From contig CAIOZY010000040.1 in assembly GCA_903862935.1 (NCBI GenBank), positions 1 to 64,000 on the forward strand: a stretch of 64,000 bases of DNA, in the 5' to 3' direction. The DNA comes from an uncultured Opitutaceae bacterium (GTDB taxonomy: Bacteria; Verrucomicrobiota; Verrucomicrobiia; Opitutales; Opitutaceae). Positions 39,965 through 55,882 of the stretch are shown one piece after another. The position numbers were made by a program, and so were the translations under genes. Below the pieces are notes generated by a model, which searched no databases, was not told the origin of the DNA, and was given only the letters and a program-made list of their open reading frames with translations. Each line of letters begins with the position of its first letter. Within the stretch, counting starts at the first letter, position 1.

Positions 39965-40009
39965 CCTGCACAGTCGGTCTGCGCACGGGTTGCCTAGAAC
40001 TGTGCAGAT
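39965..40009. promoter_or_regulatory. inverted repeat upstream of the cbb3 operon
   Basis: CTGCACAGT (39966-39974) and ACTGTGCAG (39999-40007) form a perfect 9-base inverted repeat with centres 33 bases apart, about three helical turns. A third copy of the core on the minus strand, TGCGCAGA, is at 39978-39985. It lies 46-90 bases before the ccoS start. The core matches the motif seen before other genes of the window (see findings). A regulator site is likely; the protein is unknown. Confidence 0.5.
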
Positions 40010-40044
40010 CTTGTTTGGGGCGCCTAACCTGCGGCCCCGGAAGC

Positions 40045-40713
40045 TCAGTCCAACTGCTGGGTTTCGACCCAGCGCACGGCGTGGCGGACGAGGGCTGTCG
40101 CATCCTTGAGCGCAAGCTTGCCCTTGATGTGGGCGCGGTGCACATCGACCGTCTTGGAGCTCAGGTGCAGCTGAATTGCAATTTCGCGGGTGCTCTTGCC
40201 CTGCCCGATCAGCTGGAACACCTCGAACTCCCGGTCGCTCAGCTTTTCGATCGGCGAGTGGGAGCCGCGGGGCTTCGGGGAAGACAGGCCGTCGAGGATC
40301 CGCTCGGACATCTTCGGACTCACGTAGATGCGCCCTGAAATCACCTCCCGGATGGCCGCGAGGAGGTTCTCCCCACCGGCTTCCTTCATAATGTAACCCC
40401 GGGCGCCGGCCCTGAGCGCCCGCTCAGCGTAGATCACCTCGTCGTGCATCGATACAACCAGAATCGGCAGGTCCGGTCGCGATGCCCTCAGGTCCTTGAT
40501 GAACTCCAGCCCGCTGCGCCCCGGCATGGTGATGTCGCTCAAGACCAGGTCCGGGCGGAACCGGGTCACTTCGGCGGCCGCGGAGACCGGGTCTCCCGCC
40601 TCGCCCCCGACGACCAGGTCGGGCTGCCGGTTGATCAGCTGCGCGAGCCCCGCCCGCATGAACGGGTGGTCGTCCACGATGAGGATCTTCTTCTTTCGGG
40701 ACGAGGCCTTCAT
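40045..40713 (-). CDS. NarL/FixJ-type response regulator
   Basis: This is a 222-residue regulator with a receiver domain (phospho-acceptor D60 in LVLSDITMPG) and a C-terminal LuxR-type HTH (about residues 155-215, LSDREFEVFQLIGQGKS, TVDVHRAHIKGKL). ATG 40713 overlaps the upstream kinase stop in an ATGA, so it is probably the direct partner of the REC-histidine kinase. It is the last gene of a four-gene phosphorelay and lies just upstream of the cbb3 operon on the same strand, which makes control of that operon a reasonable but unproven guess. Confidence 0.93.
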   Translation of the reverse strand: MKASSRKKKILIVDDHPFMRAGLAQLINRQPDLVVGGEAGDPVSAAAEVTRFRPDLVLSDITMPGRSGLEFIKDLRASRPDLPILVVSMHDEVIYAERALRAGARGYIMKEAGGENLLAAIREVISGRIYVSPKMSERILDGLSSPKPRGSHSPIEKLSDREFEVFQLIGQGKSTREIAIQLHLSSKTVDVHRAHIKGKLALKDATALVRHAVRWVETQQLD

Positions 40714-41762
40714 GGGTTTCGCGAAAGCACACAAGCGACGGTGACCCCCTGGCCACGCTTCGAGATGACGGTGAGCTCGGCTCCGATGACGGCCGCCCGG
40801 TGCTTCATCACCTCAAGGCCCAGCCCCCTGCCCTTCGCTCCGGTGATCCCCTTGCCGTCGTCCCAGATCCGCAGCTCCACGCAGGCGTCGGTGTCCGCAA
40901 GCCGGATTGTCACCTGGCTCGCGTTAGAGTGCTTCATCGCGTTGTTAACGGCCTCCTGGGCGATGCGGTAAAGGTGGCCGGCGGCAACACGGCTGGGGAT
41001 GGCGACCGGCGACGGGCAGTCCAGCCGGCACTTGAGGCTCCCCAACGAGTTGACCTGCTCGGCGAGCTCAGCCAGGCCCGCCTGGAGCGCGTCGGGCTCA
41101 TCGCTGACCGGCACGAGCCCCCGGGCGAGAAAGCGGGTCTGGGCAATCGCCTCGCGCAGCATTTTGCCCATCTGGTCGAGCCGCCGGGAGAATTCCGGCT
41201 GCGCGCGGCCGGCGTCCGCCTTGAGTCCCGCGCACAGCAGCTCGATCGCCGTCAGCTGCTGGCCCAGCCCGTCGTGCAGGTCGGAGCCGATCCGGCGGCG
41301 CTCCAGTTCGCCGATCTCAAGCACCTTGGACTCGAGCCTGCGGCTCTCCGCATAGGCCTTCGCAAGGGCCTTCTCCTGGGCAAGGGTGCCCAGAGCCCTG
41401 CGAACAACCGCCGGGAGCAGGTCGAGCATCCCGGAGTCTTTCATCACGTAGTCGAGCGCCCCCTGCTTCATCACGTCGACGGCGACCTTCTCGTCGCCTT
41501 GGCCCGTCACGACGATAAAGGGAACCGGAGATGCCGCCTGGCGGAGCCTGCTCAGGAGCGCCGCCCCTCCCAGATCCCTCATCTTCAAATCGAGCAGCAT
41601 CAGGTCCGGGGTGTGCTCTGCCAGCCACACCAGGGCCGCGGTCCCGGACCCGGCGGTGTCGACGTCGAAGCCGTCGCTGCGAAGAACCTCAGCCATGAGC
41701 ACAAGCAGGCCCACGTCGTCATCGACGACCAGGATCCGTGGGGGCTTGGCGGATCCGGACAT
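40710..41762 (-). CDS. receiver-histidine kinase hybrid (NarX-type kinase core)
   Basis: This is a 350-residue soluble protein. An N-terminal receiver domain (D58 in LMLLDLKM) is followed by a HisKA_3-type dimerisation domain with phospho-His H163 in GSDLHDGLGQQLTAIELL. The C-terminal HATPase has EAVNNAMKHSNAS and DDGKGITG. A kinase whose only input domain is a receiver is set up to be switched by another kinase. It lies between the single-domain regulator and the NarL-type regulator, consistent with a relay kinase. There is no sensor or membrane domain. Confidence 0.9.
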   Translation of the reverse strand: MSGSAKPPRILVVDDDVGLLVLMAEVLRSDGFDVDTAGSGTAALVWLAEHTPDLMLLDLKMRDLGGAALLSRLRQAASPVPFIVVTGQGDEKVAVDVMKQGALDYVMKDSGMLDLLPAVVRRALGTLAQEKALAKAYAESRRLESKVLEIGELERRRIGSDLHDGLGQQLTAIELLCAGLKADAGRAQPEFSRRLDQMGKMLREAIAQTRFLARGLVPVSDEPDALQAGLAELAEQVNSLGSLKCRLDCPSPVAIPSRVAAGHLYRIAQEAVNNAMKHSNASQVTIRLADTDACVELRIWDDGKGITGAKGRGLGLEVMKHRAAVIGAELTVISKRGQGVTVACVLSRNP

Positions 41763-41777
41763 CCTGCGGACCTCCGC

Positions 41778-42221
41778 TCAGTTGGCGTGCACCGGGGGCA
41801 CGATCAGCATGGACATGAACTGGCCCAGGCGCCGGATGGCGTCGGCAAACTTGTCGTAGTCTACCGGCTTCTGGATGTACACGCTGCACCCCAGCTCGTG
41901 GCACCGTGAGACCTCTCTTTGGTCGTCGGTCGTCGTCAGCATGATCACCGGCAGCTTCCTCAGTTCTGGGTCCGCCTTGATCCGGCGCAGGACCTCGACC
42001 CCGTCGACCTTGGGCATGCGGATATCGAGGAGCACCAGGTACATCTGCCCGTCCTGAATGGTCCGACCCGGGCCCTGGCGGAAAAGAAAATCGAGGACCG
42101 CCTGGCCATCGCGAAAATGCTCGACCCGGTTGTTCCAGCCGGCCGCCTCGAGATTCTGCCGGACGAGGATGGCATGCCCCTCGTCGTCGTCGACGATGAG
42201 AACCACGGGGGCCTTATTCAT
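41778..42221 (-). CDS. single-domain response regulator
   Basis: This is a 147-residue stand-alone receiver. Acidic pocket residues are in LIVDDDEGH, the phospho-acceptor is D66 in [13 protein letters not shown], and K is in the [11 protein letters not shown] motif. The Rcp1-like form has no output domain and commonly shuttles phosphate between kinases. Its start lies 8 bases inside the upstream PAS kinase gene. It probably receives phosphate from that kinase and passes it to the REC-kinase 15 bases downstream; this order is inferred from the gene order. Confidence 0.9.
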
Positions 42222-43434
42222 TGAGGTTCAAAGCGGTCGGTTGCGCCACGGGAAGGGAGATCAGGAATGTAGAACCAACCCCAACCCGGCTCTCAACGCA
42301 AATTTTTCCCCCCTGCCGCTCCAGCACGCGCTGGGCTATCGTAAGGCCCAGTCCCTCCCCCGGCGGGGTCCTGTCGGGATCCAGCCGGTGAAAAATCTCA
42401 AAGGCCTTGCTCTGGTGCTCCGGGGCGATGCCTATCCCGTTGTCGGCAATGGAGTAAATGGCCTGACCATCCTCGACGCGCCCCGCGATCGATATCCTCA
42501 AGGACCGGTCCGGGTCGCGGTACTTGACCGCGTTGTCAATCAGGTTGGCAAACACCTGGCTGGTCTGCACGGCGTCGCCGAGACAGGCCGGTAGCGCCCC
42601 GACACTCATCTCCGCCTTCGCCGCATCGAGCTGGAACTCCATCGAGGCGAGGACCCCGGCTACGAGCGAGTTCATCTCGAGCGGCTGGATCACGAAGGCG
42701 ACGCGCCCTAAGCGCGAAAAACGGAGGAGCCCGTTGAGGAGCATCTCCATCTTCATGACGCCCGCCGTTATAAATCTAAGCGCTTGGGGAATAGATACTT
42801 CAACCGGATCATGGAGGACCTCCTGCGGCACCGCCCCCCCCTTGGCATCCGCCGCGGCCGACCGGATCCTCTCGCAGGCACGGGCAAGCTGCTTGCTGAA
42901 CCCCTGCACGTTCACCAGGGGTGAGCGAAGGTCATGCGAGACAGTGTAGACGATCGTCTCAAGCTCCCGGTTCTTCTCAGCTAGGTCGGCGGCAAACTTG
43001 CGCAGCTGCTCCTCGGCGGCCTTTCGCTGGGTGATGTCGGTGCGGATGGCGACGAACTGGACGGGCTTCCCTTGGGCATCGAGCCGGGGATAGATCGTGG
43101 TGTCGACCCAGTACAGGGAGCCGTCCTTGGCCCGGTTGCGAATCTCCCCGTGCCAGGTCCGGCCCGAGCGGATCGTCTCCCACAGCACGCGGAAAAACTC
43201 CGCGGGATGGTGCCCGGAGTTGATGACCCGGTGGTCCCGTCCGATCAACTCCTCCCGGGAGTACTGGGAGACCGCGCAGAACTTGTCGTTTACGTTTGTG
43301 ATACGCCCCTCGGCGTCGGTGACCGCGACGATCGAGTGCTCGTCGAGGGCTGCCTTGATGTCCTGCAGCTCTGCCAACGCCGCCCTCAGGCGCTGCTCGG
43401 CGGGCTCTGGTCCAGATCGTTTGGGTGCTGCCAC
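42214..43434 (-). CDS. PAS-domain sensor histidine kinase
   Basis: This is a soluble kinase of about 406 residues. One PAS domain ([18 protein letters not shown], then [15 protein letters not shown] and a PAC segment, [18 protein letters not shown]) precedes HisKA with [17 protein letters not shown]. HATPase boxes are [21 protein letters not shown] and [12 protein letters not shown]. It belongs to the phytochrome-like, Rcp1-partner kinases without a chromophore domain. The start is uncertain: GTG 43434 or TTG 43473; the added 13 residues do not look domain-like. No Cys pattern in the PAS domain suggests haem or flavin directly. Confidence 0.88.
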
Positions 43435-43491
43435 GAGGGCGATGGCGTAGCAGACGGCGGCCCCAGAGCGCAAGGGCGGAGGAGATTATCC

Positions 43492-43506
43492 TAGGGAATT
43501 TCCCTA
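43492..43506. promoter_or_regulatory. palindrome between divergent sensor kinase and PocR-AraC genes
   Basis: TAGGGAA and TTCCCTA form a perfect inverted repeat around one central T. It sits in the roughly 90-130 base divergent region, upstream of both starts, so an operator serving one or both genes is plausible. The binding protein is not known. Confidence 0.4.
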
Positions 43507-43564
43507 CCCAGATATGGTCCGGGCTCCAATTTCCGTAGCCCGCCCCCTCTGCTATGGTCTGCCC

Positions 43565-44533
43565 ATGCAATTGACCACGTCCCACATGCTCTCAGCCCCG
43601 GTCCTGGACCGGGCCGACCAAGACCTGGTCAGCCACCTGCAGAAGTCGGAAATCTTCCGCGACTATCAGAAGGCCTTCGAGGCCGCCACGGGACTCCCCC
43701 TCGCCCTGCGCTCCGCCGGTTCGTTCCAGGCGCCGCTGCACGGCTCCCGGATGGTCAATCCGCTGTGCAGCTTGATGAAGTCTGCCAACAAGACCTGCTC
43801 GGCTTGCCTGCAGCTCCAGCAGCAGGTGGAGAATGCAGCCCAAGACCAGGCAGCGACGATCGAGTGTTTCGCCGGGCTTGCCGACTCGGCCGTGCCGGTG
43901 CGCGTCGGAGAGCGGGTGGCCGCCTACCTGCAGACCGGCCAAGTGCTGCTGCGGCAGCCCTCGGAAGCCCATTTCCGCCAGGTCGAGCGCCAACTCGCCG
44001 CCTTGGGCGACGACCACGACCCCCGCAGCCTGCGGCAGGCGTACTTCAATACCCGGGTGGTTACCCGCCAGCAGTACGAGTCGATCCTGCGCCTGCTGGC
44101 AATCTTCGCCGAGCACCTTGCGGGGCTCAGTAACCAATTGATGGTCAAGACTGCTGCAGCCGAGGAGCCCGCTGTTGCCAGGGCCCGGGCCTTCATCGCC
44201 GAGCGCCAGAGCGAGCCGGTCTCCCTCTCCGAGGTCGCGCGCGCCGTGAACATGAGCGCCTTCTACTTCTGCAAGATTTTCAAGCGGGCGACGGGCCTGA
44301 CCTTCACCGAGTATCTGGCCCGGGTGCGGGTCGAAACCGTCAAGCAGGTTCTCCTCGATCCGCACAAGCGGGTGAGCGAGGCCGCCTACGCCGCCGGCTT
44401 CCAGTCCCTTTCGCAGTTCAACCGCGTCTTCCGCCGGATTACCGGGGAGGCTCCGTCGGAGTACAAGCAGCGCCTGCACGGCACAACTAGCGTCCCGCTG
44501 GGCATCCCGGCGCGCCTGACGTACGCGGCCTGA
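43565..44533 (+). CDS. PocR-domain AraC family regulator (first copy)
   Basis: This is a 322-residue regulator. The N-terminal PocR sensory domain (about residues 20-175) carries Cys 68, 78, 81 and 101 in NPLCSLMKSANKTCSACLQL and IECFAGL. The C-terminal AraC double HTH (about 210-310) has VARAVNMSAFYFCKIFKRA and AYAAGFQSLSQFNRVFRRI. PocR domains are thought to bind small hydrocarbon derivatives, and the Cys set could bind a metal or sense redox; neither is shown here. ATG 43565 is favoured over 43514. It is a paralogue of the gene at 52098-53027, with closely matching Cys-containing and HTH segments. Confidence 0.9.
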   Translation: MQLTTSHMLSAPVLDRADQDLVSHLQKSEIFRDYQKAFEAATGLPLALRSAGSFQAPLHGSRMVNPLCSLMKSANKTCSACLQLQQQVENAAQDQAATIECFAGLADSAVPVRVGERVAAYLQTGQVLLRQPSEAHFRQVERQLAALGDDHDPRSLRQAYFNTRVVTRQQYESILRLLAIFAEHLAGLSNQLMVKTAAAEEPAVARARAFIAERQSEPVSLSEVARAVNMSAFYFCKIFKRATGLTFTEYLARVRVETVKQVLLDPHKRVSEAAYAAGFQSLSQFNRVFRRITGEAPSEYKQRLHGTTSVPLGIPARLTYAA

Positions 44534-44632
44534 ACAGGTTTTTTTCGGCGCGCAAGCTCAGAAAAAATTTTTGCAATTATTTCTGTTCATTTCGCGCGAG
44601 GCAGTGGTAGTGTGCGCGCGGTGAGGACGATT

Positions 44633-44646
44633 TTGATTTTGATCAA
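44633..44646. promoter_or_regulatory. perfect FNR/ANR-type box upstream of nrdJ
   Basis: TTGAT-TTTG-ATCAA matches the FNR consensus (TTGAT, four bases, ATCAA) exactly. Its centre is about 124 bases before the nrdJ start. Induction of an oxygen-independent reductase by an FNR-type factor when oxygen is low would make sense. No fnr-like gene is in the window. Confidence 0.7.
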
Positions 44647-44656
44647 TCGCGGAGCG

Positions 44657-44728
44657 AGCCTGCAGGCGAAAACCTGCGCAGGCTTGCCCACCCTCGCGGC
44701 GGCCTGAGCGCCGCGAGAAAAAGCGAGG
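44657..44728 (+). other. structured leader candidate upstream of nrdJ
   Basis: Two hairpins are readable. The first pairs AGCCTGCAGG (44657-44666) with CCTG and CAGGCT (44673-44684), with a two-base bulge and a CGAAAA loop. The second pairs CTCGCGGCG (44693-44701) with CGCCGCGAG (44709-44717) and is followed by AAAAAGCG. CCTCGC at 44692-44697 could instead pair with GCGAGG at 44723-44728. The elements of a cobalamin riboswitch were looked for and not found. It may be attenuator-like or simply 5' UTR structure; if transcription starts near 44681 only the second hairpin is in the RNA. Confidence 0.35.
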
Positions 44729-44763
44729 CGATCTCTACCCCTTCTCGGCAAAATTCTTTTTTC

Positions 44764-47322
44764 ATGAACAGCTCTTTTCACTCGAACTCCCGCGTCCAAC
44801 CCTCAGGAATCGGCCCCGCGCCGCTGATGAAAGGAGACCGCATTCTGAATCGCGCGATTGTCCCGGAGGCGCGCGCCGTCGTGAAGCGCGACGGCAGCCG
44901 TGCGCACTTCGACCTGAGCAAGATCACCCGCGCAATAGCGCTCGCTTTCTTCGACGTCCGCAATCCCGAGACACCGAACCGCTACCGTAACGACCCGCTC
45001 GCCTGCTACGGCCTCGACAGTGAAACGTTCGCAACGGTCAACGAGATCGCCTCGCACGTATCGCAGATGCTCGAGCTGTACTACCGAGACGGCAAGCACC
45101 CGACGATCGACCAGATCCAAGACGCCGTCGAAAAGTCGATCGCGGCCGCGGGACACTGGGACGTCGCGCGATCGTTCGTGCTGTACCGGGCACGCCACGC
45201 CGAGAGACGCCTGACGCGCTACACCGACAACGGCCTGTCGGACTACATCATGATGGCCAAGTACGCCCGGTACCGGCCCGAGCTTCACCGTCGCGAGACC
45301 TACGCCCAGGGCGTCGACCGGGTGCTCGACATGCACCTTCAATTCTTCAGCTCCAAGATCGGGCGGGCCGCACCGACCGAGTTGCCCGCCGACGTGGCCA
45401 AGCTCGCCGGGGCCAACGCAGAGATCCTTGCGTCAACCTGCACGGGGAAGGACTTGGGGCGGATCATACGGGACGTCTTCGCCGAGGTTTCACAGAAGCG
45501 CGTCCTTCCGAGCATGCGCTCCCTGCAGTTCGGCGGACCCGCGATCCTCACCAACCAGTCGCGGATGTTCAACTGCAGCTTCTCGAACGTGGACCGGATC
45601 GAGTTTTTCCGGGGCTACTTCTTCCTGCTACTCAGCGGCTGCGGAGTGGGCTTCTCGGTCCAGAAGCACCACATCGCGATGCTCCCGACGCTTCCGGCCA
45701 GGCGGCCCGAGCACGACCTGCCCGTTCTGCACTACACCATCGCCGACACGATCGAGGGCTGGGCCGATGCGCTGAATTCCCTGATCCTGTCCTACTACGA
45801 GGGCCGCAAGATCGAGTTCAACTACTCGGCCATCCGGCCGAGGGGTTCCCCGCTGAAGACCTCAGGCGGCAGGGCGCCCGGCCACCTTCCCCTAAAGGAG
45901 GCCTTGGGCCGCATCGACGGAATCCTCTCCCAGGCCGTCGGCCGCGCGCTGCGCCCGATCGAGGTCTATGACATGAACATGTTCATCGCGCGGGCGGTCC
46001 TGGCCGGGGGGATCCGTCGCTCGGCGACGATCTGCCTGTTCTCGCCCGACGACACCGAGATGCTTAACGCGAAGACGGGCAACTGGTTTGAGAAGCACCC
46101 GCAGCGTTCCGCCTCGAACAATTCCGCCGTTCTTTCCCGCAGCCAGGAGCAGGTCGAGCACTTCCGCAAGCTGTTCCAAGCCCAGAAGGAGTTCGGCGAG
46201 CCGGGCTTCTACTTCTGCGACAACCCCGATGCCGGCTGCAATCCCTGCGCCGAGATTGGGCTGGTGCCGGTGGTCAACTGGACCCTTGAGCCGGGCGAGC
46301 TGGAGAAGCTCTACGCCGGCGGCTACACTGGGGATTTCCCGGGCACGGTCCGGCTGTCGGGATTCCAGCACTGCAATCTGACGACGATTAACGGCGGGAC
46401 GGTCAGCACCGCGGAGGACTTCTATCGGTCCTGCATCTCCGCCACCGTGATCGGCACCCTCCAGGCCGCGTACTCCGACATGCCGTATCTCGGCCCGGTG
46501 ACGAGGCTTATCAACGAGCACGATGCCCTGCTCGGCGTTTCGATCTGCGGCTACATGGACAACCCGAAGATCCTCTTCGACGCGGATGTTCTGAACCAGG
46601 GGGCCCGGCTGTGCCGGGCCACGAACAAGTTCATCGCGACCCTAATCGGCATTCGGCCAGCCGCGCGCATCTGCACGACCAAGCCCGAGGGTACGGCGAG
46701 CCTGTTGCTCAACGCCGCGTCAGGTATCCATCCCCACCACGCCCGCCGCTACTTCCGGCGAGTGCAGGCCAATCGCAAGGAGCCGATCTACTCGTTTTTC
46801 CGCCAGGTCAATCCGCAGATGACCGAGTCATCGGTCTACAACCCGGACACCGACGACGTGATCACGTTTCCGGTGGAGGCACCCCGCCAGGCTATCATCC
46901 GCAAGGATCTCAATGCCAAGCAGTTCCTTGAACTCGTGCGGCTGGTTCAGCAGGCGTGGGTCCTCGTCGGAGCCGCGGATGACACCCGCAATCCTGAGGT
47001 CACCCACAACGTCTCGAACACCTGCACTGTCCGCAACGACGAGTGGAGCGAGGTCGCAGACTTCATCTGGGAGAACCGGGCCTATTTCACGGGAATTGCC
47101 CTGCTCCAGGAGGCCGGAGACAAGACCTACCCGCAGGCCCCTCGCGAGGAAGTGTTGACCGAGACCGACATCGCGCGGTGGAACTCGCTGCGCCCGCAGC
47201 GGGTCGACTACACCCAGATGAGGGAAGATTCCGATGAAACCGAGCTCAAGGAAACCGTCGCCTGCGCTGGCGGAGCCTGCGAGGTCGATCCGCTTATGCG
47301 GGCCGGTTCGGTTTCGAAATAG
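44764..47322 (+). CDS. nrdJ: adenosylcobalamin-dependent ribonucleotide reductase (class II)
   Basis: This is an 852-residue class II reductase. An ATP-cone-like N-terminal domain (AVVKRDGSRAHFDLSKITRA) precedes the catalytic barrel with the active-site block NPCAEIGL, the FNCSFSNV segment with its redox Cys, and TTKPEGTASLLLNAASGIHP. The C-terminus, ACAGGACEVDP, holds the external redox Cys pair. It makes deoxyribonucleotides without oxygen, using adenosylcobalamin. A later ATG at 44830 is an alternative start. It sits after a perfect FNR box and is followed by the phosphoribosyltransferase gene, whose ATG lies 89 bases inside nrdJ. Confidence 0.94.
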   Translation: MNSSFHSNSRVQPSGIGPAPLMKGDRILNRAIVPEARAVVKRDGSRAHFDLSKITRAIALAFFDVRNPETPNRYRNDPLACYGLDSETFATVNEIASHVSQMLELYYRDGKHPTIDQIQDAVEKSIAAAGHWDVARSFVLYRARHAERRLTRYTDNGLSDYIMMAKYARYRPELHRRETYAQGVDRVLDMHLQFFSSKIGRAAPTELPADVAKLAGANAEILASTCTGKDLGRIIRDVFAEVSQKRVLPSMRSLQFGGPAILTNQSRMFNCSFSNVDRIEFFRGYFFLLLSGCGVGFSVQKHHIAMLPTLPARRPEHDLPVLHYTIADTIEGWADALNSLILSYYEGRKIEFNYSAIRPRGSPLKTSGGRAPGHLPLKEALGRIDGILSQAVGRALRPIEVYDMNMFIARAVLAGGIRRSATICLFSPDDTEMLNAKTGNWFEKHPQRSASNNSAVLSRSQEQVEHFRKLFQAQKEFGEPGFYFCDNPDAGCNPCAEIGLVPVVNWTLEPGELEKLYAGGYTGDFPGTVRLSGFQHCNLTTINGGTVSTAEDFYRSCISATVIGTLQAAYSDMPYLGPVTRLINEHDALLGVSICGYMDNPKILFDADVLNQGARLCRATNKFIATLIGIRPAARICTTKPEGTASLLLNAASGIHPHHARRYFRRVQANRKEPIYSFFRQVNPQMTESSVYNPDTDDVITFPVEAPRQAIIRKDLNAKQFLELVRLVQQAWVLVGAADDTRNPEVTHNVSNTCTVRNDEWSEVADFIWENRAYFTGIALLQEAGDKTYPQAPREEVLTETDIARWNSLRPQRVDYTQMREDSDETELKETVACAGGACEVDPLMRAGSVSK

Positions 47323-47947
47323 AACTCAGGCTGGCAGACTCCTTGCTGGAAAATTGGCGGCCCACGCGGGCCGCCCCACTTTGTTGGTGCTCGGACTCCC
47401 CCGCGGGGGCGTGCCTGTTGCCGCAGCCGTTGCGGAGGCCCTTGGGGCACCGCTCGATGCGCTCGTCGTCCGAAAACTGGGTGTGCCTGGCCACGAGGAG
47501 CTCGCCATGGGGGCAATCGCCTCTGGCGGAATACGGGTGCTAAATGAGCGGGTCCTCGCATCGCTGTGCCTCAGCCCAGCCGCGGTGGAGCGGGTGGCAT
47601 CCCTTGAGTTGGCCGAGGTAGAGCGGCGGGAGCTTCAGTACCGGGGCGTGCGCCCCTTTCCCGACGTGCGGGGAAAAACGGTGATCGTTGTGGACGACGG
47701 CGCCGCCACGGGCGCGACGATTCGCGCGGCGGTGGCCGTCCTGCGGCGCTCCGGGGCCGGGCGGATCGTCGCGGCCGCTCCGGTCGCATCTCCCGAGGCG
47801 GCGGCACAACTGGCCCAGGAGGCCGATGCCTTCGTCTGCGTCATCTGCCCGGAGGACTTCGCCGCGGTCGGCCAGTGGTACGAGGATTTCTCCCCAACCC
47901 AGGACTCCGAGGTGCAGACTTCTCTCCGTGCAAGCAGTGCACAATAA
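47234..47947 (+). CDS. phosphoribosyltransferase family protein
   Basis: This is a 237-residue protein. Its conserved part begins at FRNRTQAGRLL and has LVLGLPRGGVPVAAAVAEAL, VVRKLGVPGHEELAMGAIAS and the PRPP loop TVIVVDDGAATGATIRA. The family is often found with stress and hypoxia genes; the substrate is unknown. The only ATG, 47234, lies 89 bases inside nrdJ in another frame and adds about 26 residues with no family match. Either translation begins there, or a non-ATG start nearer 47300 is used. It is followed after about 97 bases by a cytochrome gene. Confidence 0.85.
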   Translation: MKPSSRKPSPALAEPARSIRLCGPVRFRNRTQAGRLLAGKLAAHAGRPTLLVLGLPRGGVPVAAAVAEALGAPLDALVVRKLGVPGHEELAMGAIASGGIRVLNERVLASLCLSPAAVERVASLELAEVERRELQYRGVRPFPDVRGKTVIVVDDGAATGATIRAAVAVLRRSGAGRIVAAAPVASPEAAAQLAQEADAFVCVICPEDFAAVGQWYEDFSPTQDSEVQTSLRASSAQ

Positions 47948-47950
47948 AAC

Positions 47951-47966
47951 GCAAAAGTTGCGCAGA
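47951..47966 (+). promoter_or_regulatory. island motif upstream of first small cytochrome c
   Basis: GCAAAAGTTGCGCAGA, about 79 bases before the cytochrome start, has the A-rich plus TGCGCAG form found before several genes of the island. Confidence 0.4.
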
Positions 47967-48044
47967 ATTGAAAGTCGACAGACCCGCGGGGCCGCCGTGC
48001 AGTTAATGAAGTCGCTCTCTATACAAACCCCAGGATTACCCACC

Positions 48045-48371
48045 ATGAAAAAGACCCTCATCGTCACTTCTGTGATTTCGGCCCTGCTTGTTGGCGCGGC
48101 CTCCGCCCGCGCCGCCGAAGCGGCCGAGCTGTGGACCAAGAACTGCGCGGCCTGCCACGGCAAAGAAGGCGCTGGCAAGGCGAAGCTCGGCACCAAGGAT
48201 CTCTCCGTCGCTGCCAAGCAGGACAGCTTCTCGGATGAGAAGCTCTTCACCGAACTCAAGGACGGCATGAAAGACAGCGACGGCAAGGTCAGGATGAAGC
48301 CCTTCGCCGCAAAGCTGTCCGACGCGGACCTGAAGGCGCTGGTCGCCTACGTCCGCACGCTGAAGAAGTGA
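48045..48371 (+). CDS. small periplasmic cytochrome c (first copy)
   Basis: This is a 108-residue class I-like monohaem cytochrome. The signal peptide spans about residues 1-23 (TLIVTSVISALLVGAASARA). The haem site is NCAACHGK at residues 33-40, with a likely axial Met in RMKPFAAKL. ATG 48045 was chosen because an upstream in-frame ATG at 48006 only lengthens the leader. It is a paralogue of the cytochrome at 53660 (both have AELWTKNCAxCHGK). It probably carries electrons to the cbb3 oxidase. The TGA overlaps the next start by one base, so the two are coupled. Confidence 0.92.
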   Translation: MKKTLIVTSVISALLVGAASARAAEAAELWTKNCAACHGKEGAGKAKLGTKDLSVAAKQDSFSDEKLFTELKDGMKDSDGKVRMKPFAAKLSDADLKALVAYVRTLKK

Positions 48372-48892
48372 TGCAAGCGGCGGAAACCCCGCCTCCCTCA
48401 CTCGCCGTCATCGGCAGCGCACGCCGGGATGGCAACACCGCAGCCCTCGTCCACCGGTTGGTGGAGGGGCTTAGGTGCGACATCATCGACCTTCAAGACA
48501 CGCCGATGCTGCCGTTTTCCTATGGGCAACGGCAGCCCGAGGATCCGTTCTTTTCGATCGTCGAGCGCATGACCCGAGCTCCGGTCACGATCTTCGCCAC
48601 GCCAGTGTACTGGTTCTCGTACTCGGCCGTGATGAAGGCCTTCATCGACCGGTTCTCGGACCTGGCGGATCCGAATCAGGATCTGGGGCAGCGGCTGCGG
48701 GGGCGGCGGTTCGTCCTGCTAGCCTCCGGTGCCGATCCGACGTTGGAGCCGGCGCTCAACCTGGCCTTCACGGAATTTTGCCACTGCCTCGGGGCCCATT
48801 GTCTGGCCCAGCTGTATGCGAGGGAGACGGGCCCGTTCATCGACGAGGCCTCAGTCGCGCTGGTGAGGCATCACTTGGGCGAGGGATCCTAG
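48371..48892 (+). CDS. NAD(P)H-dependent FMN reductase-like flavoprotein
   Basis: This is a 173-residue flavodoxin-fold protein. The FMN-phosphate loop is IGSARRDGNTAALVHRL near the N-terminus, followed by the ATPVYWFSYSAVMKAFIDR motif of the NADPH-dependent FMN reductase family. Length is normal. ATG 48371 overlaps the cytochrome stop (TGATG), so it is cotranscribed with the cytochrome gene. The physiological acceptor is unknown; flavin, quinone or a small metal ion are family possibilities. It is convergent with the GNAT gene. Confidence 0.88.
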   Translation: MQAAETPPPSLAVIGSARRDGNTAALVHRLVEGLRCDIIDLQDTPMLPFSYGQRQPEDPFFSIVERMTRAPVTIFATPVYWFSYSAVMKAFIDRFSDLADPNQDLGQRLRGRRFVLLASGADPTLEPALNLAFTEFCHCLGAHCLAQLYARETGPFIDEASVALVRHHLGEGS

Positions 48893-48896
48893 CGCC

Positions 48897-49439
48897 CTAG
48901 ATCTTCCGGGTGAGGTCGAGGGTCGCCATGATCCCCCCGGTGAGGGGATCGGTCGACAGAATGAATCCATGCCGGCGGAAGATGTTCATCATCGGCCCAT
49001 TGTCCGGGTTTACCTGACCCCAAAGGGTCGTTAGACCGCGACGGCGGGCCGTCGACACCAGGATACGCAGGAGCGCGGTCGCTATGCCGCGCCCTCTCAT
49101 CGTCTCGCGAACGACAAAGGCCACTTCGGCGGACCGCCCTGGCGGCTCCAGGCAGTAGCGCGCAACGGCGTGGAAGACCTCGCCCCGCGGGCTGCTCGCG
49201 AAGACCCCCACGGCGCAATCGCGGTTCTGGTCGACGCCGACCAGCTCCGAAGCGCGTTCCGTGCTCATCTCCGAGATTTGGAACCCGTATCGCTCCTGGA
49301 TCGTCTCCGGGGTGTGGGACTTGAAGAAGGCTTGGAGGCGCTTGTCGTCGCCAGCGTGAAGCAGCCGCACCCGGCACGGCGTCCGGCCGAACCGCACGGA
49401 AAACGGCTTGAACTCAAACTGGGGTGAGGGGTCGGCCAT
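48897..49439 (-). CDS. GNAT family N-acetyltransferase
   Basis: This is a 180-residue acetyltransferase starting ATG 49439. The acetyl-CoA binding motif lies in VRETMRGRGIATALLRIL, with beta-bulge strand residues VAFVV before it and a C-terminal WGQVNPDNGPMMNIFRRHGF block. The N-terminal SHTPETIQERYGFQ segment matches the GNAT type attached to acetyl-CoA synthetase-like enzymes, here free-standing. The acceptor is unknown. The motif before it, at 49498-49515, is co-directional. The gene diverges from the first Cys-protein gene. Confidence 0.85.
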   Translation of the reverse strand: MADPSPQFEFKPFSVRFGRTPCRVRLLHAGDDKRLQAFFKSHTPETIQERYGFQISEMSTERASELVGVDQNRDCAVGVFASSPRGEVFHAVARYCLEPPGRSAEVAFVVRETMRGRGIATALLRILVSTARRRGLTTLWGQVNPDNGPMMNIFRRHGFILSTDPLTGGIMATLDLTRKI

Positions 49440-49497
49440 AGCGCCGGTCCTATTCTCCCCATTCCCCGTGTTCCCATCTCCGCATCGCTTTGGAAAC

Positions 49498-49515
49498 ACT
49501 GCGCATTTCTTGCAA
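49498..49515 (-). promoter_or_regulatory. island motif upstream of GNAT gene
   Basis: On the minus strand this reads TTGCAAGAAATGCGCAGT, about 59 bases before the GNAT start. It has the same A-rich plus TGCGCAG form as the other sites listed. Confidence 0.4.
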
Positions 49516-49596
49516 CTCGGACACGCGCCAAATTCCACGCAGCCTTGGCCAACTCCTGCGGAGCCAGACCGACGAGAAACAAGGAAGATCCACCCG

Positions 49597-50073
49597 TTGA
49601 ACCTGCGTTATCTCCGCGCCTGCGAGGTTCTAAGCCCCGCGGTCCGATCGGGCTGGGAAGGGCTGCTGCGTGCGGACCCGGTCTGGTCCCAAAACGTCGA
49701 GCCAGGGGCAATGGAGCGGCTGATGGATAACGTCCTTGCGCAGCTGTGGTTGATGCTCGAGGCCCGTCCCGAGGCGAGACCAACACGGCCCAAGCCTAGC
49801 GTCGAATTTCCCAAGTGGAAAGGGGGCGGATGCCGGGTCGGCCCGCTGCTCGTTTTTCTTGGTCAAGGCAAGCGGGTACTCGAGTCCATCGCACAGCAGG
49901 CGGAGGCGGGCCTGACCGAACTCGGGACCTCCGAGATAGCCGGGCATCGTGCCGAGTTGCTCCTAGTGTACGACCTCGTGCTTCAGAGCGAGATCGAGCG
50001 GATCTGCGGCTCCTGCCGCGACGGCGCAGGGTGTCCGCTGTGCAGCGCGGGGCGGCACTGGTCCCGGGCTTAA
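49597..50073 (+). CDS. small Cys-containing protein of unknown family (first copy)
   Basis: This is a 158-residue protein with no signal or membrane segment. It starts at TTG 49597, about 11 bases after AAGGA. Visible features are a helical N-terminus with RSGWEGLLRA (W20-E21), a central GGCRVGPLLVFLGQGK (C79), and EIERICGSC (C137, C140) followed by GCPLC (C146, C149). The paralogue at 51640 shares W20-E21, the Cys plus PLLV segment, and the EIE plus CxxC end. I do not recognise the family; a metal-binding or redox sensor is a reasonable guess. The N-terminal helices resemble RsbRD-type signalling domains only weakly. It stops at 50071-50073, inside an island motif. Confidence 0.75.
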   Translation: MNLRYLRACEVLSPAVRSGWEGLLRADPVWSQNVEPGAMERLMDNVLAQLWLMLEARPEARPTRPKPSVEFPKWKGGGCRVGPLLVFLGQGKRVLESIAQQAEAGLTELGTSEIAGHRAELLLVYDLVLQSEIERICGSCRDGAGCPLCSAGRHWSRA

Positions 50074-50084
50074 AAATGCGGAGG
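50068..50084 (+). promoter_or_regulatory. island motif upstream of the CoA-transferase gene
   Basis: GCTTAAAAATGCGGAGG, about 59 bases before the 50143 start, matches the A-rich plus TGCGNAG form with G for C. A TAGACT at 50125-50130 could be the promoter -10 element. Confidence 0.35.
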
Positions 50085-50142
50085 CTTCACCAACGGATGC
50101 GCAATCCGCTGGGGGAGGATGTGATAGACTGTCAGGCTCACC

Positions 50143-51471
50143 ATGAGAGCCTACACTCCCTCCTCCTTCTGGACGCGTATGCGCAGCAAGGCCGTATCGG
50201 CAGCAGACGCTGTGGCCACGCTAAAAAGCGGCACCTCCGTCTTCCTGCACGGTGCGGTCGCGACGCCGACCCCGCTTGTCGAGGCGCTAGCCGCCCGGCA
50301 CGACCTGGCCGACGTGCGCATCTATCACCTGCACACCGCGGGTCCAGCGCCGTTCGCCGATCCCGGCCGCGAGGCGGAATTCCGCTCCGTGTCGCTCTTC
50401 ACGGGGCAGCCTCTGAGGAAGCCGGTCGAGGAAGGTCGCGCCGACTTTGTTCCAATTTTCCTGTCTGATGTCCCCGGCCTGTTCATCTCGGGGGACGAGC
50501 AGCTCGACGCCGCGCTCCTGCAGCTTTCGCCTCCTGACGAGCACGGGATGTGCTCGCTGGGCACCTCGTGCGACGCGGCCAAGGCCGCCGCTGAGACCGC
50601 CCGCATCGTGATCGCGGAGATCAACGAACAGATGCCGCGCACCCACGGCAACAACGTCGTGCCCTTCAGCAGGATCCATTCGTTTGTCGCCACCGACCGC
50701 CACCTTCACGAGCACCATCCCGAGCCTGAGAGCGAGATCGAGGCAAAGATCGGCGAGTGCATCGCCGACCTGGTCGAGGACGGCTCGACCCTGCAGATGG
50801 GCATCGGGGGAATCCCGGACGCAGCGCTCGCGCGGCTCGGCAACAAGCACGACCTGGGGATCCACAGCGAGATGTTCTCCGACCGGGTGGTCGACCTCGT
50901 GCGCTCAGGGGCAGTGACGAACCGCCTGAAGGCCGTGGGCCAGGGCCGAATTGTCACCAGCTTCATCAACGGCACCCGGAAGCTCTTCGACTTCGTCAAC
51001 GACAATCCCCTGGTAGCCTTCTACCCGTGCGACTGGACAAACGACACGCACATCATCCGCCAGAATCCGAAGGTGATCGCGATCAATTCAGCCGTTCAGA
51101 TTGATCTCACCGGCCAGGTCTGCGCCGACTCGATCGGGCACCGGATCTACTCAGGGATCGGCGGCCAGATGGACTTCATCCGTGGCGCCGCATTGTCCCC
51201 AGGGGGAAAGCCGATCATCGCGCTCCCGTCAACAGCCCTCAAGGGCAAGACCTCACGGATCGTGAAAGAGCTCACGCCCGGAGCGGGCGTCGTGACGACG
51301 CGCGGGCACGTCCACTGGATCGTGACCGAGTACGGCGCAGTGAATCTCCACGGCAAGACCCTCCGGGAGCGCGGAGCTGCTCTGATCTCGATCGCGCATC
51401 CGGATTTCCGAAAGGAACTGGAGCGGGATCTGCGGGAAGTCCGCCACTTCGCACCCACGGCGAAGCTCTAA
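50143..51471 (+). CDS. acetyl-CoA hydrolase/CoA-transferase family protein
   Basis: This is a 442-residue class I CoA-transferase of the acetyl-CoA hydrolase / 4-hydroxybutyrate CoA-transferase family. The catalytic Glu is probably E243 in GIHSEMFSD, the usual context. QMGIGGIPDAALARLGNKHD and SGIGGQMDFIRGAALSPGG are family blocks. It would move CoA between acetate and another acid such as butyrate or succinate; the exact pair is not decided. In a low-oxygen cluster it fits acetate excretion or salvage. It ends in a strong terminator at 51481-51513. Confidence 0.9.
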   Translation: MRAYTPSSFWTRMRSKAVSAADAVATLKSGTSVFLHGAVATPTPLVEALAARHDLADVRIYHLHTAGPAPFADPGREAEFRSVSLFTGQPLRKPVEEGRADFVPIFLSDVPGLFISGDEQLDAALLQLSPPDEHGMCSLGTSCDAAKAAAETARIVIAEINEQMPRTHGNNVVPFSRIHSFVATDRHLHEHHPEPESEIEAKIGECIADLVEDGSTLQMGIGGIPDAALARLGNKHDLGIHSEMFSDRVVDLVRSGAVTNRLKAVGQGRIVTSFINGTRKLFDFVNDNPLVAFYPCDWTNDTHIIRQNPKVIAINSAVQIDLTGQVCADSIGHRIYSGIGGQMDFIRGAALSPGGKPIIALPSTALKGKTSRIVKELTPGAGVVTTRGHVHWIVTEYGAVNLHGKTLRERGAALISIAHPDFRKELERDLREVRHFAPTAKL

Positions 51472-51480
51472 AGGCCCCAC

Positions 51481-51513
51481 AATGCGCGCCGCCTAGTCGG
51501 CGCGCATTATTTC
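51481..51513 (+). terminator. intrinsic terminator after the CoA-transferase gene
   Basis: AATGCGCGCCG (51481-51491) pairs perfectly with CGGCGCGCATT (51498-51508) across a six-base loop, followed by ATTTCG. Confidence 0.75.
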
Positions 51514-51558
51514 GATGTCCTTGCTCCCCGGCGCCTGCCGGTGAGCGCCGGGCCCGGC

Positions 51559-51573
51559 CAAAATATGCGCACC
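51559..51573 (+). promoter_or_regulatory. island motif upstream of second Cys-protein gene
   Basis: CAAAATATGCGCACC, about 67 bases before the 51640 start. Its first 12 bases are identical to the site at 54123-54134. A GATACT at 51628-51633 lies almost at the start codon. Confidence 0.4.
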
Positions 51574-51639
51574 AAGACATGCATACGCTTGGCCAAGGGG
51601 CGCGGAGCCAGCCCCGCCTAGCCAAGCGATACTGCCACC

Positions 51640-52092
51640 ATGCAAGCCTCTCTCGTTCGCGCCCTGCGAGCGCAACGCCCGCGGATACGCACCCGCTGGG
51701 AGGACTTGCTGCGGGCAGAGCGCTCGAACTCGCCGCTCGCCAATCCCGACACCCTGGTGCACCTGCTCGACATGACCCTTGACGAGCTGCTCGCGGCCTT
51801 CAGCGCCTCTGAGGCGCGGCGCAGGCCGGCACGCCACCCTGACATTGTGTGCATGTGCGGCCGGAACCCGCTGCTCGTTTACTTTGCATCCGGGCGGCAG
51901 GCGATCCGCGAGGCACTGGTCCTCGCGCAGGCAGCGATGCCCGCGCTGGACCCCGTTGAGCGGGATTCGGCCTTCGCCGATCTGGAGGCAATTTACGGCC
52001 ACATCGCCCACCGCGAAATCGAGTCGTTCTGCGCCGTCTGTCAGTTCAGGCAGGGAGCCGGGTCGGCCCAGGCCGTCGCCGAGGCTCGCTGA
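51640..52092 (+). CDS. small Cys-containing protein of unknown family (second copy)
   Basis: This is a 150-residue cytosolic protein, paralogous to the one at 49597. RTRWEDLLRAER (W20-E21) aligns without shift. CMCGRNPLLVYFASGR (C71, C73) matches the central PLLV segment of the paralogue, and EIESFCAVC (C131, C134) matches its EIERICGSC. The extra C-terminal Cys pair of the first copy is absent. It starts at ATG 51640, preceded by CACC rather than a ribosome-binding site. The function is unknown; the conserved Cys set suggests metal binding or thiol sensing. It is convergent with the second PocR-AraC gene. Confidence 0.75.
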   Translation: MQASLVRALRAQRPRIRTRWEDLLRAERSNSPLANPDTLVHLLDMTLDELLAAFSASEARRRPARHPDIVCMCGRNPLLVYFASGRQAIREALVLAQAAMPALDPVERDSAFADLEAIYGHIAHREIESFCAVCQFRQGAGSAQAVAEAR

Positions 52093-52097
52093 GCGGG

Positions 52098-53027
52098 TCA
52101 GCTGTCGGCGTTCCGCAGGTTCCGCGCCGAGCCATCAAGGCGGTCGCGATAAACCGACGGCGCCTCTCCGGCCACCCGGCGGAAGACCCGGTTGAACTGG
52201 GACAGGGACTGAAAGCCGGCCTCGTAGGCTGCCTCGCTCACCCGCTTGTGTGGGTTGAGGAGCAGGTTCTTCACTTTCTCCACTCGGACGCGCGCAAGGT
52301 AGTCGGTGAAGGTGAGGCCCGTGGCCTTGCGGAAACTCTTGCAAAAGTAATAGGCGCTCATGTTGACCGCGCGGGCAACATCCGTGAGTGCGATCTCCTC
52401 GGCATGGTGCTCGGCAATAAACAGGCGGGCTCGGCCGACCGCGGGTGACTCGGTGGATTCCTCCTGCACCATGAGCCGGTTGCTCAGGGTGGCCAGGTGC
52501 TGGGCAAAGATGACCAGCAGCCGCAGGATCGACTCGTACTGCTTCCTAGTCACGACCCGGGTGTGGAAGAACGCCTCTTCCAGGCGTTGGAGATCGATGT
52601 CGGCACCGAACTTGAGCACGGTCCGAGCGGCGCGGTTAAACTGCCCGCCGTTCGGCTGCTGCAAGAAGATCTGGCCGGTCTGCAGGAAGGCGACGAGGTT
52701 CTCCCCCACCCGGACCGGTACCGCCGAGTCACACATCCCGGCAAAGCACCGGAGAGTCTTCGGCTCGATGCGGGCTTCCTCCTCCACCCTCTTTTGCAGC
52801 TGCAGGCAGGCCGAGCAGCTGCGGTTTGCACCGGCCATTATCGCACAAAACTCATTCTCCTTCGGGTCCCCGCGGTGGGGCAGATCAAAGGAATCCAGCG
52901 ACCGCAGCGTCAGAGGAAGCCCTGTCGTCTCGCGGAAAGCCCGTTCGTAATCACGGTAAATCTGGGACCTGCGCAACTGCTCAACGAGGTTGCGCTTGTC
53001 GCGAACAGAAATATCCGGCACGGGCAT
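52098..53027 (-). CDS. PocR-domain AraC family regulator (second copy)
   Basis: This is a 309-residue regulator starting ATG 53027. The N-terminal PocR domain has Cys 61, 71, 74, 94 and 99 (NEFCAIMAGANRSCSACLQL, LRCFAGMCD). The C-terminal AraC HTH pair has VARAVNMSAYYFCKSFRKA and AGFQSLSQFNRVFRRV. It parallels the copy at 43565 through its whole length, so the two arose by duplication. It diverges from the universal stress protein gene across about 120 bases that contain one island motif. Confidence 0.9.
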   Translation of the reverse strand: MPVPDISVRDKRNLVEQLRRSQIYRDYERAFRETTGLPLTLRSLDSFDLPHRGDPKENEFCAIMAGANRSCSACLQLQKRVEEEARIEPKTLRCFAGMCDSAVPVRVGENLVAFLQTGQIFLQQPNGGQFNRAARTVLKFGADIDLQRLEEAFFHTRVVTRKQYESILRLLVIFAQHLATLSNRLMVQEESTESPAVGRARLFIAEHHAEEIALTDVARAVNMSAYYFCKSFRKATGLTFTDYLARVRVEKVKNLLLNPHKRVSEAAYEAGFQSLSQFNRVFRRVAGEAPSVYRDRLDGSARNLRNADS

Positions 53028-53094
53028 GGCGTATTTCACCTTAGGGAGGAGGTTGCGAGGCCGCAAGCGCGTTATGCCAAAAACCGCCTAAAGG

Positions 53095-53113
53095 TTGCCA
53101 AACTGTGCGGAGA
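53095..53113 (+). promoter_or_regulatory. island motif upstream of universal stress protein gene
   Basis: TTGCCAAACTGTGCGGAGA, 38-54 bases before the 53149 start, in the divergent region with the second PocR-AraC gene. TAACCT at 53133-53138 is a possible -10 element. Confidence 0.4.
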
Positions 53114-53148
53114 CGCTCGGCGGAAGGCGCCCTAACCTCTTGTTCACC

Positions 53149-53625
53149 ATGAAGACCATACTTGCCCCCGTGGACTTTTCCGGTGCCACTGAGACCGTTC
53201 TCGCGACTGCGGGCACCCTCGCGAAGGCGCTGAATGGACGGGTCGTCCTCATGCATGTCGTGCGGCCTCCCGCAATGATCAACGAGTACGCCCCCGAGAT
53301 TGAGCGGCTCACTGAGCTAGCCGAGAAGACGGCAGTCGAGCAGATGGACCACTGGCGGGCTGACCTGCGCGGTCGTGGCGTCGAAACCGAGGTCGTTCAT
53401 GCCGTTGGATCGCCCGTGGCCAAGATTCTGGACGAGGCAAACGAGCTATCGGCGGACCTGATCGTCATGGGCTCCCACGGCCATGGGGCCCTGTACGGGC
53501 TCCTGGTCGGCAGCACGGCGGGCGGCATCCTAAAGAAGGCCACCTGCCCGGTGATGATCGTGCCGCCTGCGGACAGGCCTCACGCCGCGGTGCCTGCGGA
53601 AGCTGTGACCAGCCACGCCCGGTGA
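53149..53625 (+). CDS. universal stress protein (UspA family)
   Basis: This is a 158-residue UspA-type protein. It begins MKTILAPVDFSGATETVLAT with the first strand and Asp, and has the ATP-binding block GSHGHGALYGLLVGSTAGG followed by TCPVMIVPP. This is the nucleotide-binding form of the family. Such proteins help survival under starvation or low oxygen. ATG 53149 is preferred to 53095. It is transcribed away from the second PocR-AraC gene and is convergent with the second cytochrome. Confidence 0.93.
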   Translation: MKTILAPVDFSGATETVLATAGTLAKALNGRVVLMHVVRPPAMINEYAPEIERLTELAEKTAVEQMDHWRADLRGRGVETEVVHAVGSPVAKILDEANELSADLIVMGSHGHGALYGLLVGSTAGGILKKATCPVMIVPPADRPHAAVPAEAVTSHAR

Positions 53626-53659
53626 CCCGGCCGTAGGTGGTTTGAGCGGACCAAATCGG

Positions 53660-53998
53660 TTACTTCTGCAGCGAACGGACGTAACCGACGAGGGACTTGA
53701 CCTCGGCGTCCGACAGGACGCTGCCGAAGGCCTTCATCTTCTCCTCGCCGTTATCACCCTTGTAGCCCTCTTTGATCCGGGCCGCGGCCTGATCATCGGT
53801 GAAGCTCTTCTGGTACTCAGCGCTCGTCATGTCCTTGACGTGCTTCATGTGACCGGCCTTGGTGTGCCCGGCGCCGTCCTTGCCATGGCAGGAGGCGCAA
53901 TTCTTGGTCCAGAGTTCGGCGGACTCAGCAGCGCGTGCCACCGAGGCGCATAGGACTAGGGCGGAGAGTAATCCAGCGTACTTCGTGATCGATTTCAT
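53660..53998 (-). CDS. small periplasmic cytochrome c (second copy)
   Basis: This is a 112-residue monohaem cytochrome starting ATG 53998. The signal peptide covers about residues 1-23, the haem site is NCASCHGK at residues 33-40, and the probable axial Met is in EKMKAFGSVL. Compared with the copy at 48045 it has a His-rich loop, GHTKAGHMKHV. It may carry electrons between the pentahaem module and an oxidase or reductase. It diverges from the pentahaem gene across about 200 bases. Confidence 0.92.
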   Translation of the reverse strand: MKSITKYAGLLSALVLCASVARAAESAELWTKNCASCHGKDGAGHTKAGHMKHVKDMTSAEYQKSFTDDQAAARIKEGYKGDNGEEKMKAFGSVLSDAEVKSLVGYVRSLQK

Positions 53999-54121
53999 GA
54001 TGTTAGTTTTGAGATTCTGGGGTTGGGTGACCGGCCACCGATGAAATGACCCGCAGGCCGCCTGTCGAGAGAAAGTGTGCGCCGGCCTCGGATTAGCCCA
54101 GTAATTCCTCTGGATCAGACC

Positions 54122-54137
54122 GCAAAATATGCGCTGA
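54122..54137 (+). promoter_or_regulatory. island motif upstream of the pentahaem operon
   Basis: GCAAAATATGCGCTGA, 61-76 bases before the 54198 start. Twelve bases (CAAAATATGCGC) are identical to the site at 51559. Confidence 0.4.
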
Positions 54138-54163
54138 GATCCGCAAAGGATGGGAAGCCTCCC

Positions 54164-54932: not shown

Positions 54933-54945
54933 ACCAGACCGCACC

Positions 54946-55875: not shown

Positions 55876-55882
55876 GCGCACC

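Follow-up and report, generated by a model that had tools for sequence, protein, structure and literature searches.

A 21-bp direct repeat in front of respiratory and fermentative genes of an Opitutaceae bacterium: a probable class II operator of a PocR-AraC type activator

The DNA analysed here, called the window in the following, is a stretch of 64,000 nucleotides (nt) from an uncultured Opitutaceae bacterium. It contains an island of genes in which a short DNA element recurs in front of the genes for a cytochrome c, a CoA-transferase, a universal stress protein (Usp), a GNAT acetyltransferase and two small Cys proteins (CysA and CysB), and in front of an operon coding for a pentahaem cytochrome, an iron-sulphur (FeS) protein and NrfD (Table 1). 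The island also encodes two AraC-type proteins with a PocR domain, PocR-AraC1 and PocR-AraC2, both of which pass the Pfam cut-offs for PF10114 and for the AraC helix-turn-helix (HTH). These are the two PocR-domain proteins found in the genome, in which seven AraC-type HTH proteins were found. An earlier reading of the letters alone (the original prediction) had noticed a repeated A-rich motif before island genes and proposed a PocR-AraC regulon; its statement on the two proteins agrees with the Pfam result.

The full element is a direct repeat with a period of 21 base pairs (bp), CAANNNNTGC-N11-CAANNNNTGC, i.e., a 31-mer in which the half-repeat can be written as CAANNNNTGCG. It was recognised when the sites were compared with the region 5' of the orthologous pentahaem operon in other Verrucomicrobia. 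The motif of the original prediction is real, but what was described is one half of this larger element. Seven of the eight positions listed coincide with sites running in the direction of the gene, and two of the sites (near 51559 and 54122) do share 12 identical bases, CAAAATATGCGC. Position 39965 is out of register and no separate site. At 51559, 14 bp ahead of the 21-bp pair at 51573, a half-site is present, but the 31-mer counted from it scores -2.9 bits. One operator, 49529(+), had been missed. The half-motif as it was written is too weak to be used alone; AAANNNTGCGCAGA gives 3 matches in the genome versus 1 for the reversed sequence.

With the spacing fixed at 21 bp the window contains 2 pairs without mismatch and 7 with one mismatch. 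The 19 other spacings between 15 and 34 bp give, when summed, no perfect pair and 8 with one mismatch; for the reversed pattern at 21 bp the counts are 0 and 3. Two of the seven one-mismatch pairs are situated within coding sequence and a third is 47931 read on the opposite strand, and for this reason the number of sites was taken from a weight-matrix scan, which finds eight operators in the window. The positions left free by the pattern are not random; in the matrix the bases right after TGCG are C (0.79) and A (0.64).

The sites have the position expected of promoter elements. Of the 28 sites of at least 17 bits found in the own genome, 27 are intergenic and 24 have a called start on their own strand 22-170 nt further on; the remaining cases are the uncalled short open reading frame (ORF) 39746-39919, the uncalled CysA, a contig end and a gap of 577 nt. 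When 97 sites (27 from the own genome and 70 from 11 other genomes) were aligned the second half-site was seen to extend as GCAGC, and a TAnnnT hexamer begins at +25 after the 31-mer in 33 of them, while any other position has at most 5. There is an A at +26 in 71 and a T at +30 in 72 of the 97 sites; the bases downstream of the 31-mer were not used in the site search. Loci fetched by protein gave the same picture (A at +26 in 65 and T at +30 in 64 of 82 sites), in a set which overlaps the first because the loci come partly from the genomes that were sources of the matrix. Both bases are present in seven of the eight window operators, the exception being 47931. A -10 sequence in this register puts the second half-site at the place where a -35 would be, which is the class II layout: two half-sites about 21 bp apart, the proximal one at -35 and a fixed -10, is the operator geometry of the AraC/XylS family.

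The genome comprises 3.35 Mb and is 95.6% complete; the exact pattern occurs 9 times in all of it. For the family the exact pattern was used in the version with a G after the first TGC, and 231 matches were found in 120 genomes compared to 36 for the backwards pattern. In a sample of the order there were 35 matches versus 5 reversed in 15 genomes of the family and 61 versus 27 in 162 others. The weight matrix was built from 104 distinct 31-mers of other genomes, with no match from the own genome included; the training set was hand-chosen in that matches resembling conserved coding sequence (an NVCELVANFC-like family) and some others were dropped by eye. A scan of 430 kb of the own genome, where 12 of the 21 pieces had been picked because they contain a pattern match, gave 31 sites of at least 14 bits, where the reversed matrix gave 3; at 18 bits the counts were 23 against 0. 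In 400 kb which had not been chosen for the motif the numbers were 5 against 6 at 14 bits and 2 against 0 at 18 bits, i.e., near background; one of these two 18-bit sites is in coding DNA and the other is located before a multihaem cytochrome b561-type gene. On the contig of the window there are 14 sites of at least 17 bits between 39,983 and 100,419 and no site reaching 14 bits from 104,001 to 224,000. The motif is thus not equally common elsewhere; an equal frequency would have spoken against the original prediction. The examined quarter of the genome contains at least 29 sites.

Conservation was analysed at loci that were retrieved by protein and not by motif, 80 in total: 26 with Opitut- names, 28 with names of other Verrucomicrobia and 26 others. 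Sites found with the matrix and with the reversed matrix were 62 versus 0, 19 versus 0 and 1 versus 1, respectively. Among the loci with enough sequence a site on the right strand was present within 1.5 kb 5' of the FeS gene in 16 of 24, 8 of 28 and 0 of 20, where the reversed matrix gave none in any group, and the position of the 54123 operator is conserved in other Verrucomicrobia. Orthologues of HemN, a target outside the window, are found in 87 of the 120 family genomes, and in the best 30 of these 87 a site of at least 14 bits precedes the gene in 15, versus none with the reversed matrix. In 20 stretches from 11 genomes, selected for holding PocR genes and matches, sites stand before the HemN orthologues in 6 genomes, and before those of the CoA-transferase, of Usp and of CysB in 4 genomes apiece. 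The numbers are smaller or variable for cytochromes, cbb3 oxidase, hydrogenase and pyruvate:ferredoxin oxidoreductase. In four metagenome-assembled genomes named Pedosphaera or Verrucomicrobia (L007, L010, L012, L014) the 21-bp repeat is visible by eye before the pentahaem gene. The half-site in some of them is a variant nearer CAANNNATGGNNAGC, and a strict CAANNNN(T/C)G pair at 21 bp is present in L010, L012 and L014 and not in L007; such variants should be useful for studying co-evolution of the operator and the HTH.

The connection to the PocR genes comes from both location and co-occurrence. Among the 150 matches listed, 14 have a listed PocR gene within 1.5 kb, where 0.17 are expected, and 32 have one within 15 kb, where 1.7 are expected. 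Two arrangements recur, and both are also seen in the window. In one, found in 4 genomes, the site faces away from the PocR domain and lies 127-157 bp upstream of it; in the other (9 matches in 8 genomes) it lies approximately 870-1000 bp beyond the PocR domain and faces the gene. The window copy of the latter is predicted to drive cysB. A homologue of PocR-AraC2 (E ≤ 1e-40) is present in 91 of the 120 family genomes; in a sample of the phylum it was found in 26 of 240 genomes, 18 of the 26 being from this family. The number of matches per genome, with the control in brackets, is 2.59 (0.36) in the 75 genomes with a strong AraC2 homologue, 0.94 (0.25) in the 16 with an intermediate one and 0.76 (0.17) in the 29 without. 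At least one exact match is found in 57 of the 75 and in 14 of the 29, several of the latter being incomplete genomes. The HTH recognition helices of PocR-AraC1 and PocR-AraC2 are nearly identical, so the two proteins may use the same operators with different inputs. It can be added that the HemN gene is situated within about 2 kb of a PocR gene in four genomes (G190, G240, G251, G272), a further link between HemN and PocR.

The predicted regulon extends beyond the island, and in this respect the original prediction was too narrow. Own-genome targets outside the window include NuoA, two proteins of the 2-oxoacid:ferredoxin oxidoreductase type, HemN, a ferredoxin, an Fe-S protein resembling pyridine-nucleotide/dihydroorotate dehydrogenases, multihaem cytochromes, the small subunit of a [NiFe] hydrogenase, and a HoxE/NuoE-like gene heading hydrogenase genes that extend into the window. 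Further targets are elongation factor EF-G, a transketolase-like enzyme and an aminotransferase, besides several proteins whose family is unknown or doubtful. In other genomes the sites precede genes for glutamyl-tRNA reductase, ferrochelatase, a protein of the AIR-synthase type (HypE-like), a globin and a multicopper oxidase with a cytochrome c domain and, less telling, a TonB-like protein. What the targets have in common is life with little or no oxygen.

Table 1. Operators, their targets and the candidate regulator genes in the window
Feature	Position	Strand	Score (bits)	Remarks
Operator	39983..40013	-	28.2	CAAGATCTGC..CAACCCGTGC; 12/12 pattern match; before 57-aa (amino acid) ORF; -10 TAAACT in register
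57-aa ORF	39746-39919	-		5' of cbb3 oxidase genes
PocR-AraC1	43514..44533	+		Second candidate regulator; PF10114, PF12833, PF00165
Operator	47931..47961	+	20.0	12/12 pattern match; before cytochrome c 48045-48371
Operator	49482..49512	-	31.4	Before GNAT acetyltransferase 48897-49439; start 42 nt on; GAGAAT at +25..+30
Operator	49529..49559	+	22.1	Before CysA, TTG start
CysA	49597..50073	+		Small Cys protein, 29% identical to CysB; behind operator
Operator	50070..50100	+	21.8	Before CoA-transferase 50143-51471; -10 TAGACT
Operator	51573..51603	+	21.4	Before CysB; start 36 nt on; -10 GATACT
CysB	51640..52092	+		Small Cys protein; convergent with PocR-AraC2; behind operator
PocR-AraC2	52098..53027	-		Preferred candidate regulator; PF10114, PF12833, PF00165
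Operator	53078..53108	+	21.3	Between PocR-AraC2 and Usp gene 53149-53625; -10 TAACCT
Operator	54123..54153	+	26.4	Before pentahaem cytochrome/FeS/NrfD operon; 44 nt before ATG 54198; -10 TAAGCT
Pentahaem cytochrome, FeS protein, NrfD genes (target operon)	54198..57094	+

Some features of these genes should be mentioned. The ATG at 54198 is a likelier start of the pentahaem gene than 54150, according to the gene caller and the closest relatives. The 47931 operator overlaps the end of the preceding ORF. The name ccoS, which had been given to the gene following the 39983 site, was dropped since the 57-aa ORF has no Pfam match at E 0.01. The cbb3 oxidase gene (37397-39718, minus strand) codes for the catalytic subunit and FixO/CcoO fused into one protein of 773 aa (COX1 plus FixO); the fusion is conserved, as another locus (L220) has a protein of 772 aa which is 83% identical.

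CysA and CysB have no Pfam or NCBIfam match. The fetched loci contain 26 distinct CysB homologues, a count which includes the one of the window and some partial ones; 19 of the 26 end within 100 bp, tail to tail, from a PocR-AraC gene; CysA/CysB are possibly partners of the regulator. The predicted structure of CysB is helical (mean predicted local distance difference test, pLDDT, 72.3). Foldseek gave no match to it at E ≤ 0.001 and VIA-align gave mainly designed or unrelated helical proteins; CysB is therefore not assigned to a fold family. The HTH part of PocR-AraC2 matches structures of the AraC family, and its 191 N-terminal residues match no solved structure by sequence at E 1. A structure model of PocR-AraC2 made from a two-sequence alignment was poor (mean pLDDT 45.3) and was not used.

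From the geometry of the element, the two PocR-AraC proteins in the island, the clustering of sites at PocR genes and their higher density in genomes with an AraC2 orthologue, the candidate PocR-AraC regulon of the original prediction gains support, with the amendment that it looks like a regulon for low-oxygen respiration and fermentation. We regard it as close to certain that there is a regulon and that its operator is of this type, and it is likely that the PocR-AraC proteins are what binds the sites. The hypothesis as a whole, an operator of an AraC-family class II activator which has PocR-AraC2 as its likeliest binder and acts as a low-oxygen gene switch, appears probable to us. The model proposes that two activator monomers bind head to tail on the half-sites (about CAANNNNTGCGCAG), 21 bp being two turns of the helix. 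The downstream half together with GCAGC would cover the place of the -35, with the -10 at a fixed distance, and the operator would span about -67 to -32, judged from the -10 register. PocR-AraC2 is the protein most likely to bind the sites, possibly joined by its paralogue PocR-AraC1. Because the sites stand before genes for respiration under micro-oxic and anaerobic conditions, for haem, hydrogenases and 2-oxoacid:ferredoxin metabolism and for fermentation, the regulator is probably a low-oxygen activator, which would turn on its targets when oxygen or electron acceptors are scarce as FNR or ArcA do elsewhere. We infer that the signal is oxygen or the redox state; the low-oxygen role of the regulon is likely on the basis of its target genes.

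A number of observations are at variance with this hypothesis. Allowing one mismatch, the pattern occurs 40 times in the genome compared to 37 times reversed, which is background, and therefore exact matches, the weight matrix and features outside the pattern were used instead. Kinship among the genomes makes the P values of the pattern tests too small. The 47931 operator has no -10 in the usual register (GCGGGG at +25..+30). Half of the HemN genes tested (15 of 30) have no site of 14 bits, a site on the opposite strand is present in 5 of the 30, and a strict TAnnnT at 24-26 behind the site is found in only 2, many having ATACT there. No exact match was found in 18 of the 75 genomes with a strong AraC2 homologue. 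Conversely, three genomes that are 98-100% complete (G035, G177, G200) have a good site and no PocR protein, the identity to the HTH being at best 31-36%; their sites stand before an unplaced gene, a globin gene and a multihaem cytochrome gene. As to oxygen sensing by a Cys cluster, the PocR cysteines C61, C71, C74 and C94 are invariant in all 43 aligned homologues, but they are not diagnostic since two PocR domains of other architectures have them too, one minus a single Cys. The globin site of G177 (L292:3263; 98% complete, no PocR protein found) is in itself a strong one, with the -10 TATGGT in the exact register.

An alternative which we consider unlikely, though the best of the three, is that the element is a real AraC-type operator bound by another AraC-family protein, the PocR genes being near only through a shared respiratory cluster. 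The seven AraC-type HTH proteins of the genome and the good sites in the three near-complete genomes without a PocR-AraC2 orthologue speak for it. What argues for the PocR-AraC proteins is that the sites recur directly beside PocR genes in the two arrangements described, that the density of matches tracks AraC2, and that AraC2 homologues and the motif are both found mostly in this family.

It is far less probable that the sites belong to an FNR-like protein or to the response regulator of the island (40045-40713, NarL/FixJ type), whose gene is near the 39983 operator. In its targets the regulon is similar to that of FNR, and a perfect FNR-like box, TTGATTTTGATCAA, is present at 44633-44646. 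The element itself is no FNR box, TTGATNNNNATCAA boxes are absent at the target promoters with one exact box in 430 kb, and the sole Crp/FNR-family protein with a full HTH match is without the N-terminal Cys cluster; a direct repeat of 21-bp period covering the -35 resembles AraC operators and speaks against both proteins. The box at 44633-44646 precedes a gene for an 852-aa protein resembling ribonucleotide reductases of the ATP-cone, adenosylcobalamin type. A chance origin of the motif in GC-rich intergenic DNA has next to no probability. The half-motif is barely above its control and the one-mismatch full pattern is at background, but the exact pattern, the matrix scans, the fixed -10 and the orthologue tests all exceed their controls, and in stretches of the genome that were not picked for the motif the sites are near background.

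Operators of the AraC family with the same architecture are well known. At araBAD the AraC half-sites araI1-I2 are arranged head to tail with a 21-bp period and the proximal one next to the -35, and the sites of XylS also have a 21-bp period. Compared with AraC at araBAD the system described here has the same head-to-tail half-sites of 21-bp period and differs in the sequence of the half-site and in the sensor domain; nothing pointed to a looping site further away, although no search aimed at one was made. With XylS it shares the direct repeats and the class II layout with the proximal half at -35; XylS, however, responds to benzoates and serves one pathway, whereas the present element stands at many promoters, has another half-site and is assigned to candidate regulators with a PocR sensor domain. 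At the Pm promoter of the TOL plasmid pWW0 two monomers of the two-HTH activator XylS bind two 15-bp direct repeats and the binding site overlaps that of RNA polymerase (PMC5481539). The combination of a PocR domain and an AraC-type HTH is found in PocR of Salmonella and Lactobacillus reuteri, and the text searched describes no operator for the L. reuteri protein (PMC3162504). The two PocR-AraC proteins of the window score far below the cut-off of the NCBIfam PocR equivalog NF047788 (91.2 and 80 versus 500 bits), and their predicted targets are respiratory and fermentative whereas the PocR proteins of Salmonella and L. reuteri control propanediol/glycerol and vitamin B12 genes. The FNR and ArcA regulons have comparable kinds of targets (HemN, hydrogenase, ferredoxin oxidoreductase, Usp). 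They differ from the present one in the DNA element and, by inference, in an unrelated family of regulators.

A more far-reaching model, which we put forward as speculation with the odds somewhat against it, is that in Opitutaceae the PocR-AraC pair took over the role of FNR as a family-wide master switch, that the cysteine-bearing PocR domain senses redox state or oxygen, and that the switch is tuned by the convergent CysB, itself a target. A literature search aimed at the regulon described here, in which many subscription papers were outside reach, gave no report of it, and oxic/anoxic switching in Verrucomicrobiota is little charted in the literature found. What is likely to be new is an AraC-type activator system serving a broad respiratory regulon. 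The analysis defines the operator and its register relative to the promoter, lists promoters that are predicted targets, and names two candidate regulators and a possible partner protein, which makes the question testable. If the hypothesis is true, a PocR-domain protein would be a broad respiratory regulator, compared with the control of propanediol, glycerol and B12 genes by the PocR proteins in the literature found, and this little studied regulator could play the part in these bacteria that FNR plays elsewhere.

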